From Oscillospiraceae bacterium (lineage in GTDB: Bacteria > Bacillota > Clostridia > Oscillospirales > CAG-272), in NCBI GenBank assembly GCA_015065295.1, contig SVQN01000007.1:1-58473 (forward strand): a DNA stretch of 58,473 bases, in the 5' to 3' direction. Shown here in pieces: positions 1,159-51,218 of this stretch. The notes below the pieces were generated by a model. The model was not told the DNA's origin. It did not search any database and was given only the letters and a program-made list of their open reading frames with translations. The stretch's first letter is position 1, and every line of letters starts with the position of its first letter. A program made the translations under genes and the position numbers.

Positions 1159-1199
1159 TAACTAATGGTGAATGACTGCCCAACTCCACCGCTGTTTCT

Positions 1200-1425
1200 A
1201 CTGAACGAACGTTTTGGACAGCTCTGCACCCAAACTTCGTCCCTTCCTAAAAATCTGAATGCGGGCAAACCGCTGTCTGTCCGAGCCCTTAAGGGCGAGT
1301 TCCCCGAACAATTTACAGGGCGGGGAGATTCATAAGAGGGCTTCGCCCCGGAAGTCCTCTTATGCGCCGTCCGCGCAGGACATAAAATCTGAAAAATGCC
1401 TTCAGGCATTTTTCTTCCATATAAT
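1200..1425 (+). repeat. Family A palindromic element, half copy (A1)
   Basis: This is the right half only of family A. It carries the core TGAATGCGGGCAAACCGCTG, then hairpin GCCC-TTAA-GGGC (1285-1296). Next is a variable hairpin pairing AAGAGGGC with GTCCTCTT around 1335-1372. It ends in a terminal hairpin AAAAATGCC-TTCA-GGCATTTTT (1392-1413). It fills the gap between rnz and metA and its final hairpin resembles an intrinsic terminator. The short sequence TAATGGCTAATAACTAATGG at about 1147-1166, just after the rnz stop, is a degenerate direct repeat also seen near 24580 and 34400. Confidence 0.85.
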
Positions 1426-1476
1426 CCAAACGAACGGTTTGGTATTCTATCCCTCTGTAAGGAGTCCATAAAAATT

Positions 1477-4549: not shown

Positions 4550-4556
4550 GAACACC

Positions 4557-5106
4557 AAACCGCTCGTTTGGAAAGGAAGAAAAAAGTACCCGTTGGGTAC
4601 TTTTTTCAATTTTATGTCCCTGCGCGGGACGGCGCATAAAGGGGCTCAGACGCCGCCCCTTTATGAATTCCCGGCTTGGCGTTCGGGGGACTCGCCCTTA
4701 AGGCCTCAGACAGACAGCGGTTTGCACTCAGCAGATTGCACGGAAGAACAGTGATTTTGTTCAACCAAAGGTGGAACTGACATTTTAGATATCCCTCACG
4801 GCTGTTTGTAGTGAACGAACGATTTGGACAAGTTTGCACCCAGACTTTGTCTCTTCCTAAAAATCTGAATGCGGGCAAACCGCTGTCTGTCTGAGTCCTC
4901 AAGGCCGAGTCCCACAAACGTTAAGCCGGGAATTCACAAAGGGGCGGCGACTGAGCCCCTTTGTGCGCCCGTCCCGCGTAGGGACATAAATTTAGAAAAA
5001 CGCCTTCAGGCGTTTTTCTACCTTCTGCCCCGAAGGGGCATTTTCCATCGCCGTCCGCGCAGGACATAAAAATTGAAAAATGACCGGAACGGTCATTTTT
5101 CTTCCT
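4557..5106 (+). repeat. Family A palindromic element, full copy (A2)
   Basis: This full family A element has a left terminal hairpin GTACCC-GTT-GGGTAC (about 4585-4600), hairpin GTCCC-TGCGC-GGGAC (4616-4630) and hairpin AAAGGGGC/GCCCCTTT (about 4637-4664). The same order is mirrored on the right. The right end is duplicated: hairpin ACGCC-TTCA-GGCGT, then GCCCCGAAGGGGC, then a second terminal module with hairpin TGACCG-GAA-CGGTCA (about 5078-5100). It begins about 8 bp after the RACo stop and ends about 10 bp before the tRNA promoter. Confidence 0.9.
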
Positions 5107-5115
5107 TCTAATTCC

Positions 5116-5144
5116 TTGACAAAGACCATACCTTATGGTATAAT
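5116..5144 (+). promoter_or_regulatory. Consensus sigma-A promoter of the tRNA gene
   Basis: TTGACA (5116-5121) and TATAAT (5139-5144) are both perfect and separated by exactly 17 bp. The mature tRNA begins 12 bp after the -10 box. Confidence 0.9.
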
Positions 5145-6564: not shown

Positions 6565-6566
6565 TG

Positions 6567-7172
6567 TTTTTTCTTGGGGGAACCTTTTTGAGGAAAAGGT
6601 TCCCCCAAACCCCTTCCCAAACCTTTTTGGACTGCGGTAGCCATTTGGTTACTGCGGATTTTTTGTTTTCTGGGGGATTTTCTTGGGTACCTGCGTAGCC
6701 ATATAGTTGATCCCATCCGCTGACATGATGTTGGTTTGAAATTCTACGAAAATTATAACGGGGAAGTCAGGCTCCGCCAAGACCCTGACTTCCGTTGCCG
6801 TATGGAGATACGTTGATGAGGTGCGTCACGTCAAAATTCAGCTACAATTTGTCATCCCCCGCACTCCTTGGCTGACGCCGTTCGTGCTTTTCGAAGAAAA
6901 CTGTATGTCAGCCGACCGAACAAACGCAAAGCGCGGACGGCGGGCGAGCCAAGCCGCGCGGAAAACCAATGAACCGTAGCTGAATTCAAAAGTGGCGTAT
7001 TGTATCGCGCAGTCGCAGCATGGCGAGGGAAGTCAGGGTCTTGGCGGAGCCTGACTTCCCCATAACGATTTTCGTAGAAATTCAAACCAACCCCACGTCA
7101 ACGGGCCGAACACTCTTCAGCCGAACTCCACGGAATTTTTTCCTTTTCCCCCTCCCCATCATATCAGCCAAA
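6567..7172 (+). repeat. Family B palindromic element with altered right end (B2)
   Basis: The left end is a hairpin pairing GGGGGAACC with GGTTCCCCC around GAGG (about 6575-6607), starting 3 bp after a stop codon. Internal hairpins have the same stem GGAAGTCAGG/CCTGACTTCC at 6762-6793 and 7028-7059. Their loops, ctccgccaagac and gtcttggcggag, are exact reverse complements. GAATTCAGCTA and TAGCTGAATTC (about 6834 and 6977) also mirror each other. The usual right terminal repeat is missing; after ACCGGCTACA a different sequence with hairpin GCTTTCTT/AAGAAAGC follows. Confidence 0.88.
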
Positions 7173-7247
7173 CAAACCGGCTACAGCAGTATAAAGTTCT
7201 TTGCACAGCTTTCTTTCAAGAAAGCGCGTTTCCCCCGCACATAACCC

Positions 7248-9490: not shown

Positions 9491-9500
9491 CCGGGGATAT

Positions 9501-10188
9501 TTTTTCTTGGGGAAACCTTTTTGAGGAAAAGGTTTCCCCAACCCCCTTCCAAAACCTTTTTAGACTGTTGTAGCCGGTTTGGTTATTGCGGATTTTTTCT
9601 TTGTAGGGGGATTTTCTTGGGTGCCTGCGCTGACATATTGTTGATCCCATCCGCTGACATTTCGTTGGTTTGAAATTCTGAGAAAATTATAACGGGGAAG
9701 TCAGGCTCCGCCAAGACCCTGACTTCCCGCGCCGGAAAAGATACGTTGATATAGTGCGCCACTTTTGAATTCAGCTACATTTGGTCATCCCCCGCACTCC
9801 TTGGCTGACGCCGTTCGTGCTTTGTGTCAAACAACTGTATGTCAGCCGATCAAACTGACGAAAAGCGCGGACGGCGGGCGAGCCAAGACGCGCGGAAAAC
9901 CAACGAACCGTAGCTGAATTCAAAAGTGGCGTATTGTATTACGCAGTCGCAACATGGCGTGGGAAGTCAGGGTCTTGGCGGAGCCTGACTTCCCCAAAAC
10001 GATTTTCGTAGAGATTCAAACCAGCCCCATGTCAACGGGCCGAACACTCTTCAGCCGAACTCCACGGTATATTTCAAAAAATCCCCTCCCCATCCTATCA
10101 GCCAAACAAACCGGCTACAACCGCCCAAAAAGGTTTTGGAGAGGGGGTTGGGGAGAACCTTTTCCTCAAAAAGGTTCTCCCCAAGAAA
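9501..10188 (+). repeat. Family B palindromic element, complete copy (B3)
   Basis: A full element running from TTTCTTGGGG, just after the mgtC-family stop, to CCCCAAGAAA. The inverted terminal repeats span about 57 bp. The internal GGAAGTCAGG/CCTGACTTCC hairpins occur near 9695 and 9965 with mutually complementary loops. The centre contains CCCCCGCACTCCTTGGCTGA and the AAAGCGCGGACGGCGGGCGA block seen in the other copies. No target-site duplication is obvious in the flanks. Confidence 0.92.
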
Positions 10189-15605: not shown

Positions 15606-15880
15606 ACACCCCTTCGGGGTGAAAGGTAGAAAAACGCCTGAAGGCGTTTTTCAAAATTTTATGTCCTGCGCGGACGGCGCACAAATGGAGTTCACGAAGT
15701 GAACTCCGTCAATCGCCGCCCCTTTGTGAATTCCTGGCTTGACGTTCGGGGGACTCGGCCTTAAGGCCTCGAGTTACGAAGTAACTCGGACATACAGCGG
15801 TTTGCCCGCATTCAGATTGTTAGGAAGGGACAAAGTTGGGTGCAAATCTGTCCAAATCGTTCGTTCACTACAAACAGCCG
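15606..15880 (-). repeat. Family A palindromic element, half copy, inverted (A3)
   Basis: A reversed half element. It has hairpin CACCCC-TTC-GGGGTG (about 15606), then terminal hairpin AAAAACGCC-TGAA-GGCGTTTTT (about 15631-15652). Hairpin GTCC-TGCGC-GGAC follows, then a hairpin with an inserted GGAGTTCAC/GTGAACTCC arm, then GGCC-TTAA-GGCC. The core GCAAACCGC in reverse orientation and the tail toward TCCAAATCGTTCGTT complete it. It lies inside an operon, between binding-protein and ATPase genes, unlike most copies. Confidence 0.88.
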
Positions 15881-15953
15881 TGAGGAATAACTGAAATGTC
15901 CGTTTCACTTTCTGGAAGTTTGGAATCACGAAACTTTTTTCGGAGTTTTTTCA

Positions 15954-19622: not shown

Positions 19623-20306
19623 GTTTTTTCTTGGGGGAACCTTTTTGAGGAAAAGGTTCCCCCAAACCCCTTCCAAAACCTTTTTGGACTGCGGTAGCCA
19701 TTTGGTTACTGCGGATTTTTTCTTTGTAGGGGGATTTTCTTGGGTACCTGCGTAGCCATATAGTTGATCCCATCCGCTGACATGATGTTGGTTTGAAATT
19801 CCATGAAAATTATAACGGGGAAGTCAGGCTCCGCCAAGACCCTGACTTCCCACGCCGTATGGAGATACCTTGATATAGTGCGTAACTATAGAATTCAGCT
19901 ACATATCGTCATCCCCCGCACTCCTTGGCTGACGCCGTTCGTGCTTTTCGAAGAAAACTGTATGTCAGCCGACCGAACGAACGCAAAGCGCGGACGGCGG
20001 GCGAGCCAAGACGCGCGGAAAACCAACGAACCGTAGCTGAATTCAAAATTGACGTACTATATTGCGCAGTCGCAACATGGCGAGGGAAGTCAGGGTCTTG
20101 GCGGAGCCTGACTTCCCCAGAACGATTTTCGTAGAGATTAAAACCAGCCCCACGTCAACAGGTCTAACAAATTTCAGCCGAACTCCACGGAGTTTTTTCC
20201 TTTTCCCCTCCCCATCATATCAGCTACACAAACCGGCTACCACCGCCTAAAAAGGTTTTGGAAGGGGTTTGGGGAAACCTTTTCCTCAAAAAGGTTTCCC
20301 CAAGAA
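19623..20306 (+). repeat. Family B palindromic element, complete copy (B4)
   Basis: A complete element between the convergent ends of the importer operon and alr. It has inverted ends of about 57 bp and the internal GGAAGTCAGG/CCTGACTTCC hairpin in both halves (about 19823 and 20085). GAATTCAGCTACAT at about 19892 is mirrored by GTAGCTGAATTC at about 20033. The position suits a bidirectional terminator. Confidence 0.92.
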
Positions 20307-32751: not shown

Positions 32752-33436
32752 TTTTTTTCTTGGGGAAACCTTTTTGAGGAAAAGGTTTCCCCAAACCCCT
32801 TCCAAAACCTTTTTCATCTGCTATCAAATGTAGGATGTGCAGATTTTTTCTTTTTATAGGGGATTTTCTTGGGTGCCTGCGCTGACATATTGTTGATCCC
32901 ATCCGCTGACATTTGGTTGGTTTGAAATTCTACGAAAATTATAACGGGGAAGTCAGGCTCCGCCAAGACCCTGACTTCCCACGCCGTATGGAGATACGGT
33001 GATGGGGTGCGTCACGTCAAAATTCAGCTACATTTGGTCATCCCCCGCACTCCTTGGCTGACGCCGTTCGTGCTTTTCGAAGAAAACTGTATGTCAGCCA
33101 ATCGAACTATCGCAAAGCGCGGACGGCGGGATAGCCAAGACGCGCGGAAACCCAACGAACCGTAGCTGAATTCAAAAGTGGCGTACTGTATCATGCAGTC
33201 GCAACATGGCGCGGGAAGTCAGGGTCTTGGCGGAGCCTGACTTCCCCAGAACGATTTTCGTAGAGATTCAAACCAGCCTCACGTCAACAGGTCTAACAAA
33301 TTTCAGCCGAACTCCACGGAATATTTTAAAAATCCCCTCCCCATCCTATCAGCTACACAAACCGGCAACAACCGCCTAAAAAGGTTTTGGAGAGGGGTTT
33401 GGGGAGAACCTTTTCCTCAAAAAGGTTCTCCCCAAC
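32752..33436 (+). repeat. Family B palindromic element, complete copy (B5)
   Basis: A complete element between divergent genes. Its left end is a GGGGAAACC/GGTTTCCCC hairpin and its right end a GGGGAGAACC/GGTTCTCCCC hairpin, so the two end stems of this copy differ yet each stays paired. Internal GGAAGTCAGG/CCTGACTTCC hairpins lie near 32950 and 33212 with complementary loops. The element sits between the leftward deacetylase promoter and the rightward transaminase promoter. Confidence 0.92.
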
Positions 33437-35562: not shown

Positions 35563-35861
35563 GCAGAAGCCCAACAAAAGCAAACTGTCTCCTGCTGTAA
35601 GCGAGATAGTAATGAGCGTAAAAACCCACGAAGAGTAAAAAGGAGCCCGGACTCCGGCCGCGAGGTATGCAGACCTCCCTCCGCTGCCGTGCGCGCATTC
35701 TGCGCCGCCGCAGCGACAGGACGCTGGGAGCACGAACCGGTCGGGAGGGCACCGTCCTTGCGTAAGCAGGGTTTCTATACGCTTGTTATGAAACGCCACA
35801 GCGGGGGATTTTTTCTTTCTTTGGCTTACAGCCGGTGTGGGGGTGTGCAAACCGTTCGTTT
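35563..35861. other. Gap with GC-rich unexplained sequence
   Basis: The stretch after the DUF1292 stop has no supportable ORF. It holds small inverted repeats (AGGT-ATGCAG-ACCT near 35664 and a GCGCC/GGCGC-rich block near 35690-35720) and the segment GCTTGTTATGAAACGCC near 35780. It leads directly into family A copy A4. I see no gene. Confidence 0.6.
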
Positions 35862-36420
35862 GCATTGGAAGGAAGAAAAAAGTACCGTTCCGGTACTTTT
35901 TTCAATTTTATGTCCCTGCGCGGGACGGCGCATAAATGGAGTTCACGGAGTGAACTCCGTCAGACGCCGCCCCTTTATGAATTCCCGGCTTGGCGTTCGG
36001 GGGACTCGGCCTTGAGGCCTCAGACATACAGCAGTGTTCACTCAGCAGATCGCACGGAAGAACAGAGATTTCGTTCAACCAAAGGTGGAACTGACATTTA
36101 AGATATCCCTCACGGCTATTTCTACTGAACGAACAATTTGGACAGATTTGTACTGCACCTTGTCTCTTCCTGAAAATCTGAATGCGGGCAAACCGCTGTC
36201 TGTCCGAGGCCTTAAGGCCGAGTCCCCCGAACGATAAGCCGGGAATTCACAAAGGGGCGGCGATTGAGCCCCTTTGTGCGCCGTCCGCGTAGGACATAAA
36301 TTTTGAAAAACGCCTTCAGGCGTTTTTCTACCTTCTGCCCCGAAGGGGCATTTTCCATCGCCCCCGCGCAGGGACATAAAAATTGAAAAAAGTACCGTCA
36401 GGTACTTTTTTCTTCCTTCT
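35862..36420 (+). repeat. Family A palindromic element, full copy (A4)
   Basis: The left terminal hairpin is GTACCG-TTC-CGGTAC (about 35880-35900). The third hairpin is AAATGGAGTTCAC...GTGAACTCC with GCCCCTTT, an enlarged form. The right end is duplicated, with hairpins ACGCC-TTCA-GGCGT, GCCCCGAAGGGGC and GTACC-GTCA-GGTAC. It ends a few bases before the mnmG -10 box (TATAAT at 36429-36434), so the -35 region of that promoter falls in the element's edge. Confidence 0.9.
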
Positions 36421-39744: not shown

Positions 39745-40223
39745 CAAACCGTTCGTTTGATTGAAAGGAAGAAAAAAGTACCTGACGGTACTTTTTTCAA
39801 AATTAATGTCCCTGCGCGGGACGGCGCATAAAGGGGCTCAGACGCCGCCCCTTTATGAATTTCCGGCTTAGCGTTCGTGGGACTCGCCCTTGAGGGCTCA
39901 AACAAACAGCAGTTTGCACTCAGCAGATCGCACGGAAGAACAGGGATTTCGTTTTGCTGAAAAGTGGAACTGATATTTCAGTATCCCTTCACGGCTGTTT
40001 GTAGTGAACGAACGATTTGGACAGCTTTGCACCCAAACCTTGTCCCTTCCGAACGATCTGAATGCGGGCAAACCGCTGTTTGTCCGAGGTCTCAAGACCG
40101 AGTCCCCCGAACGATTTCCAAGCCAGCAATTCATAAAGGGGCGGCGTCTGAGCCCCTTTATGCGCCGTCCGCGCAGGACATAAAAATTGAAAAATGACCG
40201 GAACGGTCATTTTTCTTCCTTTT
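39745..40223 (+). repeat. Family A palindromic element, full copy (A5)
   Basis: Left terminal hairpin GTACC-TGAC-GGTAC (about 39778-39791), hairpin GTCCC-TGCGC-GGGAC, hairpin AAAGGGGC/GCCCCTTT, and mirrored copies on the right. The fourth hairpin of the right half is GGTC-TCAA-GACC (40088-40099), where other copies have GCCC/GGGC or GGCC/GGCC. The right terminal hairpin is TGACCG-GAA-CGGTCA. It lies between convergent genes. Confidence 0.9.
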
Positions 40224-42611: not shown

Positions 42612-43113
42612 TCCAAACCGTTCGTTTGGATTGAAAGGAAGAAAAAAGTACCTGACGGTACTTTTTTCAAAATTAATGCCACTGCGCGTGGCGGCGCAAG
42701 AGAGACCCGATTGCGGGCCTCTCTTGACTCTCCGCAACCAGAGGAAGTATCCTCTGGACTCCTCTCAAAGTTCAACCGAAAGCTGCGGACTGTCCTGCCA
42801 GTTTAAGTCCGGCGCAAGCCGGCAGTTAAAATAGGCTAACCGCGTGGCAAACAGCCATTTCGTCACGGCTGTTTCTACTGAACGAACAATTTGGACAGAT
42901 TTGCACCCAAACCTTGTCCCTTCCGAACAATCTGAATGCGGGCAAACCGCTGTCTGTCTGAGCCCTCAAGGGCGAGTCCCCCGAACGTCAAGCCGGGAAT
43001 TCACAAAGGGGCGGCGATTGACGGAGTTCACTTCGTGAACTCCATTTGTGCGCCGTCCCGCGCAGGGACATAAAATTGAAAAATGACCGGAACGGTCATT
43101 TTTCTACCTTCAA
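42612..43113 (+). repeat. Family A palindromic element, full copy (A6)
   Basis: Left terminal hairpin GTACC-TGAC-GGTAC (about 42649-42662). The second hairpin is GCCAC-TGCGC-GTGGC (42678-42692), a compensated variant of GTCCC-TGCGC-GGGAC. The third pairs AAGAGAG with CTCTCTT (42698-42725). The right half has GCCC-TCAA-GGGC, an enlarged GGAGTTCAC/GTGAACTCC arm and terminal hairpin TGACCG-GAA-CGGTCA. An extra 100-bp segment (about 42735-42835) between the halves is specific to this copy. Confidence 0.9.
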
Positions 43114-47379: not shown

Positions 47380-47436
47380 GGGAAAATATACGATTTCTAC
47401 AAAAAAGTTTGAGAAAATGCAAACGGTTTGTAAGGA

Positions 47437-47941
47437 AGGAAGAAAAAAGTACCGTTCCGGTACTTTTTTCAATTTTATATCCCTGCGCGGGACGGCGCAT
47501 AAGAGGACCGGTCGCGGTCCTCTTATGAATCTCCACGACCAGAGGGAGAACCCTCTGGACACCCCGCGTTTGTGGGACTCGGCCTTAGGGGCTCAGACAG
47601 ACAGCAGTGTTCACTCAGCAGATCGCACGGAAGAACAGAAATTTCGTTCAACCAAAGGTAGAACCTAAATTTTCAGGTATACCTCATGGCTATTTCTACT
47701 GAACAAACGATTTGGACAGATTTGCACCCAACTTTGTCTCTTCCTAACAATCTGAATGCGGGCAAACCGCTGTCTGTCTGAGCCCTCGAGGGCGAGTCCC
47801 CCGAACGCCAAGCCGGGAATTCACAAAGGGGCGGCGTCTGAGCCCCTTTGTGCGCCCGTCCCGCGTAGGGACATAAAATTTGAAAAAATGTCCAACGGAC
47901 ATTTTTTCTACCTTCCACCCCGAAGGGGTGCCCCCACGTTT
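47437..47941 (+). repeat. Family A palindromic element, full copy (A7)
   Basis: Left terminal hairpin GTACCG-TTC-CGGTAC (about 47448-47466). The third hairpin is AAGAGGACC...GGTCCTCTT (47501-47524), unlike the AAAGGGGC form of other copies. The right half has GCCC-TCGA-GGGC and AAAGGGGC/GCCCCTTT. The right terminal hairpin is ATGTCC-AAC-GGACAT flanked by A and T runs (47883-47907), then CACCCC-GAA-GGGGTG. It lies between the ABC-F promoter and spoIIE. Confidence 0.9.
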
Positions 47942-50880: not shown

Positions 50881-51218
50881 TCTTGGGGGATGTTTTTTTG
50901 GGGAAACCTTTTTGAGGAAAAGGTTTCCCCAAACCCCTTCCAAAACCTTTTTCATCTGCTATCAAATTTAGGATGTGCAGATTTTTTCTTTTTATAGGGG
51001 ATTTTCTTGGGTCTGTGCGTAGCCATTTCGTTGATCCCATCCGCTGACATGATGTTGGTTTGAAATTCTACGAAAATTATAACGGGGAAGTCAGGCTCCG
51101 CCAAGACCCTGACTTCCCTCGCCGGAAGGGATTCGTTGATATAGTGAGTAACTACTGAATTCAGCTACATATCGTCATCCCCCGCACTCCTTGGCTATCG
51201 CCGTTCGTGCTTTTTGGT
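50881..51218 (+). repeat. Family B palindromic element, left half only (B6)
   Basis: The left inverted end GGGGAAACC/GGTTTCCCC begins about 30 bp after the spoIIE stop, and the left GGAAGTCAGG/CCTGACTTCC hairpin is near 51087-51118. The centre block ends at about 51215 (CCGTTCGTGC). The right half is missing: the 3' end of the lipoprotein gene (51230) abuts directly. A deletion or an incomplete insertion would explain this. Confidence 0.88.

Follow-up and report, generated by a model that had tools for sequence, protein, structure and literature searches.

Intergenic palindromic elements with ends kept in shape rather than in sequence in an uncultured Clostridia genus

The 58,473-nt stretch of DNA analysed here (the window) is contig C62 of the draft genome G000, which comprises 2,901,216 bases in 135 contigs. 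At positions 4557-5106 it carries a string of hairpins mirrored around a centre, and similar strings recur elsewhere in the window with other stem sequences. What is this element, and why is its shape kept while its letters change? A preliminary description had listed the hairpins, in the same order and with named stem variants, at seven places of the window. The seven places and the variants are present in the sequence, but the copies at 1200 and 15606 are one-armed, so that there the hairpin order holds for one arm. The list of stems was right. An extra unit (H2 and H1) adjoins the right end at 4557-5106 and is also found at 35862.

The element is an imperfect, mirror-symmetric palindrome of ~480-550 nt, non-coding and intergenic. 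In copy 4557-5106 inverted arms of 100 nt, 88% complementary, flank a centre of 139 nt, and self-folding sections of the arms lie further out. The strand 4557-5024 (468 nt) had a predicted folding energy of -287.3 kcal/mol (z = -23.9 relative to 100 dinucleotide shuffles), and its predicted fold is chiefly one long arm-to-arm hairpin. The features of this copy and the positions of the others are listed below; 'inside-out' denotes the strand running from the centre outwards.

4555..4571, + strand: left outer hairpin CCAAAC..GTTTGG; outer hairpins are missing where the orthologous site of copy 47436 is empty
4579..4607, no strand assigned: left H1, A-run, stem GTACCC/GGGTAC and T-run; terminator-like on both strands
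4616..4630, - strand: left H2, reading GTCCC-TGCGC-GGGAC on +; inside-out on -
4635..4665, - strand: left H3, reading CATAAAGGGGC..GCCCCTTTATG on +; inside-out on -
4631..4730, + strand: left arm, inner part, 88% complementary to 4870-4969
4731..4869, + strand: element centre, within the species-specific core; no gene called
4870..4969, + strand: right arm, inner part, pairing with the left arm
4935..4965, + strand: right H3, CACAAAGGGGC..GCCCCTTTGTG
4971..4985, + strand: right H2, GTCCC-GCGTA-GGGAC
4993..5020, no strand assigned: right H1, stem CGCC/GGCG between A- and T-runs; scanned as a terminator on the - strand only
5026..5040, + strand: right outer hairpin TGCCCCGAAGGGGCA, itself terminator-like on +
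5053..5101, no strand assigned: extra terminal unit, with H2 GTCC-GCGCA-GGAC at 5053-5065 and H1 at 5075-5101, terminator-like on both strands
1187..1440, + strand: one-armed copy, ends approximate, right core half and arm; arm match 1303-1418
15608..15905, - strand: one-armed copy with approximate ends; arm match 15623-15752; in G008 the orthologous site is filled, in G015 empty
35849..36418, + strand: two-armed copy that has the extra terminal unit and lies upstream of mnmG, at the breakpoint of an inversion
39746..40221, + strand: two-armed copy flanked by convergent genes; a copy is also at the orthologous site in G008 and G015
42612..43110, + strand: two-armed copy, ends approximate, AAGAGAG-type H3; orthologous site filled in G015
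47415..47931, + strand: two-armed copy with approximate ends, flanked by divergent genes; no copy at the orthologous site in G008 or G015

Read from outside in, an arm consists of the outer hairpin, GGAAGGAAG, H1, CAATTTTAT, H2, the joint GGCGC, H3 and the stretch that pairs with the other arm. The outer hairpin is CCAAAC..GTTTGG or of a highly variable xxCC-TTCG-GGxx type, and is absent from some arms. H1 is composed of an A-run, a GC stem and a T-run and is terminator-like, H2 of a 4-5 bp stem with the loop T(A/G)CGC. The fixed parts of the arm are loops and joints; the letters of the stems are free. Both GGAAG and GGTAG occur before H1, and the loops TTC and GAA are both seen on one stem. 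In G000, G008 and G015 the terminator stem took the form of 21 parsed strings in 119 arms (some shortened by the parse), H2 of seven fully paired stems in 142 arms, and H3 of 28 stems in 139 arms; the 142-arm set includes one false hit and 11 rows repeated through overlapping loci. The stem variants named in the preliminary description are real, and stems vary more widely than was noted there. It also left unmentioned that part of the H3 variants carry an A.C mismatch. At some ends the T-run terminator is missing and another hairpin, or none that can be named, takes its place (14/87 arms of G000, 8/55 arms of G008 and G015 together). Pairing of the H2 loop TGCGC with the adjoining GCGCA, as in a pseudoknot or switch, is not claimed; the loop variant TACGC is uncompensated.

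A covariance model built from 61 arm sequences matched 88 arms in G000. Clustering by sequence anchors in the sequenced stretches of G000 that were examined yielded 35 two-armed and 16 one-armed copies. The clustering had given 17 one-armed places, of which L004 is false and two more lie at contig ends; at L047, counted as one-armed, an altered second arm was missed by the anchor. Several one-armed copies stop near the element centre, and some comprise half a core and an arm. Arms behave as modules that are shuffled between copies.

In the 61 arms 92.0% of the cells pair, compared with 82.9% after shuffling. In a larger alignment (A2) the values were 96.2% and 68.6%, both sides changed in 26 of 26 pairs, and the covariation score was 0.577 versus 0.160 for shuffled alignments, none of 500 shuffles scoring as high. 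When the partner column was slid by 1-3 columns, the score was at most 0.143. A2 contains 79 matches (74 distinct) from 19 genomes: that of the window, those of 17 congeners and one from a different genus of the family. At least four of these matches overlap a match on the opposite strand and three places occur twice; all were kept. A MAFFT alignment (A1) misplaces the terminator stem. Because A2 was fitted to the covariance model, H2 and H3 were also cut out by sequence anchors alone. In this pairing-blind alignment 5 of 15 structure pairs had E<0.05 against a null of 200 alignments simulated along the tree, as did 1 of 580 non-structure pairs (neighbouring H3 columns). Five of the ten structure pairs above the threshold have at most 9/76 rows that depart from the commonest pair. 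The anchor alignment holds 76 distinct rows from 13 genomes, without G004, G007, G018, G020, G021 and G022, and 39 of 221 sequences failed the anchor parse.

Pairing that is kept while bases change had been taken, on the copies of the window, as strong evidence of selected structure. With more copies and genomes the covariation persists, also against the tree null, and local inversion or gene conversion alone does not account for the stem variants. Inversion cannot create new stems, because inverting a stem-loop leaves the stem as it is and only turns the loop. Replacement or conversion within a species spreads stems, but the stems that distinguish one genome from another do not arise in this way. 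Because arms move as modules from one copy to another, differences among copies do not count as independent events. We hold with high confidence that the structure of the arms is under selection.

The mismatches of H3 revealed a strand polarity. In 72 genome-stem combinations read outside-in there were 45 mismatches: 31 A.C, 1 C.A, 1 G.T and 12 others. Three of the 31 A.C are G008 stems under two labels; 28 remain without them. Read inside-out, the A.C sites are G.U pairs. They lie three to eight pairs from the top in 28 of 31 cases and at ten pairs in the other three, and they occur in nine genomes (G000, G007, G008, G009, G015, G016, G018, G021 and G022) in stems that share little sequence. 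Left and right arms contributed six each among the 12 of 33 A.C arms whose side the regular expression could tell. In a second taxonomic family of the order, 18 H3 stems had 13 A.C (nine of them at pair 2), 3 G.T and 16 other mismatches. H2 showed three A.C and two others in 142 arms, and H1 two A.C and two others in 119 parsed arms, both without G.T. Because G.U cells do occur in A2 when read outside-in, mostly in H1 (19, compared with 3 in H2 and 2 in H3), the claim of polarity is confined to H3. In either arm it is the inside-out strand on which H3 remains paired, a point that the preliminary description had not seen. A mirrored polarity of this kind would follow if each end were read as an outward-running single strand, whether RNA or DNA. 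In minimum-energy folds the inside-out strand formed H2 in 3 of 4 arms, the other strand in 1 of 4.

Copies sit downstream of stop codons or upstream of gene starts, and none of 43 clusters lies inside a gene (genes called by our own script). By hand tally, the neighbours of the 42 copies that could be scored are tandem in 32 cases, divergent in 7 and convergent in 3; for all neighbours in the window the figures are 31, 5 and 5 of 41. Since the orientation of the copies is close to the window background, with no convergent excess, they are not concentrated where a two-way terminator would be needed. Terminator arms facing a gene 3′ end (n = 56) have a median distance of 70 nt from gene edge to H2, which places H1 ~30 nt past the stop codon; for arms facing a 5′ end (n = 62) the median is 145.5 nt. 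Ends without a terminator face gene starts in 18/22 cases versus 62/118 for terminator ends (p = 0.017), and in G000 alone in 12/14 versus 38/72 (p = 0.036); the rows behind the distance and facing counts include 11 repeats and one false arm.

H1 has the form of an intrinsic terminator, a GC stem followed by a T-run (119 arms parsed). In copy 4557-5106 the scan called two of the three H1 terminators for both strands and the third for a single strand. Judged by this form, H1 is likely to terminate transcription. The promoter scan found no site wholly within 4557-5106; one weak site (9/12) overlaps the right end and points inwards. Directly past the right end, at 5116-5144, lies a perfect TTGACA-17-TATAAT promoter-like site of a tRNA-Met gene.

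G008 and G015 are close relatives of G000 (MnmG 96% and 94% identical, respectively) and are colinear with much of the window except for one inversion. Copy 47436 is present in G000; in G008 and G015 the site is empty between colinear flanks and the outer hairpins are absent too. The site after mnmG is filled in G008 and G015 and empty in G000, and that after g13577 holds a one-armed copy in G008 only, among the three species compared. At 15623 both G000 and G008 have a copy, placed past an older terminator-like hairpin, and the site in G015 is empty. Seven sites could be followed in a syntenic stretch: one is filled in all three species, three in two and three in one, with no G008 sequence on that contig for one of the single-species sites. 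Beyond the syntenic stretch the number of shared sites is inflated, because most loci of G008 and G015 had been chosen for holding a copy. The empty sites may also reflect precise loss. No target-site duplication was seen at the filled/empty pairs, whose flanks have diverged and whose exact ends are only approximate.

At shared sites cores and stems differ between species, and the orientation of the core may be reversed. Median identity within a genome was 0.79 in G000 (35 elements), 0.83 in G008 (7) and 0.78 in G015 (8); between these genomes it was 0.56-0.63. Six same-site pairs had identities of 0.60-0.67, about the same as other cross-species pairs. High identity within and low identity between species, even at the same sites, indicates that copies are replaced or converted within species. 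The same-site pair L038/L031 has the same core and an identity of 0.76, and at several sites two or three species share a copy; copies can thus stay put for a long time.

Within the genus arms were found in 18 of 25 genomes, 1 to 100 in each. With stricter filters, a sample of the family gave arms in 5 of 196 genomes, including G122 of another genus. A sample of the order gave them in 10 of 345, of which G000 and six others look real. Inspection by eye of the nine order-sample genomes other than our own found the anchors at L169-L171, L173, L175 and L176, and not at L172, L174 and L177. In the second taxonomic family of the order the anchor pattern occurs in 22 of 87 genomes, 19 of them within one genus (25 genomes) and three outside it; the reversed pattern occurs in none of the 87. 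L190, from this family, is a full two-armed element. In genus g157 of the same family, L170, L185, L187, L190, L191 and others have the same H2-GGCGCACAAGA-H3 arms with GC-rich stems, and the outer hairpin, where seen, is without a T-run. The class sample contained the pattern in 2 of 391 genomes, one being G000. The other match (G773, L179) has no hairpins beside the pattern and was taken as chance. A contig binned as Methanocorpusculum (L060, JAGARL010000319.1) also carries the element; as 350 nt of its flank match a flank of G000 at 99.7% identity, it is probably misbinned.

The preliminary description knew of no account of such an element, and we found none in open papers. Excerpts of several papers on known repeats allow a comparison. 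REPINs and BIMEs are doublets of REP sequences in inverted arrangement, whose movement is ascribed to RAYT transposases and in whose spacer compensatory changes are reported (PMC3116915, excerpt). Like the present element they are mirror-image, strand-polar hairpin pairs, intergenic, multicopy and geneless. In that excerpt, however, REP sequences are conserved in letters, whereas the present element has free stems, no GTAG tag and arms of three to four hairpins plus a terminator, and no Y1 transposase tracks it. CGTC-tagged REPs, as excerpted from PMC3733652, are likewise short palindromes with 4-5 nt loops, often inverted dimers and with no dedicated transposase known. Their tag is unpaired and fixed, whereas the GTC of H2 sits in the paired stem and is replaced in 37/142 arms. 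No REP-type unpaired GTAG or CGTC tag was found at the foot of the present hairpins.

MITEs, including Correia, BOX and RUP, resemble the element as non-coding, folded intergenic sequences of <600 bp with terminal inverted repeats, and BOX also in its modularity (excerpts of PMC10969869 and PMC3049150). The element has the MITE features of terminal inverted repeats, lack of coding sequence, shortness, many copies and presence/absence at orthologous sites. It departs from the MITEs of these excerpts in that its ends are kept as shape and not as sequence, and no target-site duplication or parent transposon was found. The pneumococcal repeat SPRITE also places a terminator-like hairpin near gene 3′ ends, but in the excerpted text it is one hairpin with an 18 bp stem and is enriched between convergent genes (PMC3049150); the present element is not so enriched and has a terminator-like hairpin at two ends, together with H2, H3 and a core. 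An excerpt of a survey of structured RNAs in the human microbiome counts 250 palindromic candidates and predicts 230 of these to be terminators (PMC8040213); the present element may be among the candidates. With the closest published kinds the element has in common its mirror-image polar hairpins, intergenic position, modularity and species-specific forms. Because the tests for a tag and a transposase failed and neither a duplication nor a parent was found, we file the element under none of REP, REPIN, BIME, MITE and SPRITE.

Two candidate families of mobilising enzyme were rejected. An IS200/REP transposase (PF01797) occurs in 8 of 25 genus genomes (the drafts scored are 73-94% complete) and in none of G007, G008 and G022, which have 45, 100 and 33 arms. 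A reverse transcriptase (PF00078) occurs in 12 of 25 and is absent from G008, G010 and G015, with 100, 71 and 74 arms. No transposon that could be an autonomous partner was seen by eye in seven stretches with lone or weak arms. The list of the 88 arms of G000 contained no inward-facing pair 700-5000 nt apart that would indicate a parent transposon; arm clusters were formed only up to 700 nt. A scan of the window with Rfam 15 at gathering thresholds matched only tRNA, and group II introns, riboswitches and other known RNAs were set aside. In a lax search of nine loci two matches appeared, both at L107 (E 0.049 and 0.29) and below gathering; they were taken as chance. An origin from phages or plasmids was also rejected: 50,697 phage and 72,556 plasmid records contained no similar DNA, and one exact element pattern was absent from viral contigs.

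The best reading of these results is a new, structure-defined family of elements. From the sequence comparisons the family is probably mobile, and we consider it somewhat probable that these are mobile palindromic elements with shape-kept ends and built-in terminators, which spread within the genome like MITEs and REPINs. What is kept at each end would be the folded shape and not the stem letters: the loop T(A/G)CGC, the joint GGCGC, the sequence after H3 and often the G.U wobble in H3, all read on the strand running from the centre outwards. A protein acting in trans would recognise the folded single strand at each end; that the folded single strand is the recognised form is a bold inference from the wobble bias. 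Where an end faces a gene 3′ end, H1 lies near the stop codon and would close the transcript of that neighbour, and a copy would do little harm. Modules pass between copies, which become homogenised within each species. More specifically, an enzyme might read the folded inside-out strand, which would bear the 3′ end at each terminus, while the stems drift and loop, joint and a G.U wobble stay. This we put forward as doubtful; if true, it would be a transposition system distinct both from IS200/RAYT, which uses tagged hairpins, and from inverted repeats read as sequence.

The mobile reading has to be weighed against three others. The elements might be two-way insulators maintained by the host, old terminator blocks under selection whose letters turn over by conversion and which are not actively mobile. 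H1 is terminator-like, mostly in both directions, the terminator arms facing gene 3′ ends lie at the 70-nt median, one site has a copy in three species whose letters differ between them, and ends without a terminator more often face gene starts (18/22 vs 62/118). However, the orientation of the copies is near the window background with no convergent excess; presence and absence are species-specific, and a terminator leaves the conserved H2 loop, the joint and the H3 wobble unexplained. We regard insulators as rather unlikely. The inside-out wobbles kept in both arms would also suit a structured RNA made from the centre outwards and ended by H1, the arms being the 3′ parts of two divergent RNAs. 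One-armed copies of half a core and an arm, and H2 folding on the inside-out strand in 3/4 tested arms, agree with such RNAs, yet copy 4557-5106 contains no promoter-like site wholly inside it, Rfam matched nothing besides the window tRNA except for the two sub-gathering hits in nine loci, and the cores differ between species. Divergent RNAs of this kind appear improbable.

About equally improbable is that selection plays no part and template switching at quasi-palindromes restores the stems. Among the 61 arms, pairs alternate as CG/UA (39/22), AU/GC (43/17) and GC/AU (44/17); G.U intermediates are lacking and A.C occurs only once, as palindrome correction would have it. But correction should erase A.C mismatches, which persist in different stems of nine genomes; it favours neither strand and leaves the fixed loops and joints unexplained. 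The kept mismatch and the strand bias are also seen in the second taxonomic family.

The element keeps its shape, its polarity and a few bases, and its stems change almost completely between species at partly shared sites. Its many naturally occurring compensatory variants could serve to test the requirements of a structure-reading recombinase or of a terminator. One element family makes up much of the repetitive DNA between genes in an uncultured Clostridia genus.

Three further places of G000 have AAGGAAGAAAA on both strands, closely spaced and without an arm match (C18:9961-9997, C74:9765-9798 and C113:16977-17017); they are perhaps solitary H1 units. A different repeated palindromic family, GGGGAACCTTTTT..AAAAAGGTTCCCC, occupies intergenic positions 6566-7195, 9500-10130, 19623-20251, 32752-33380 and 50890-51189 of the window. 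In G008 similar sequence lies upstream of mnmG, and at L121 and L124 it adjoins half-copies of the main element. The segment ~7200-35800 of the window is inverted relative to G008 and G015, and its breakpoints hold the GGGGAACCTTTTT..AAAAAGGTTCCCC repeat at 6566-7195 and the copy at 35849.
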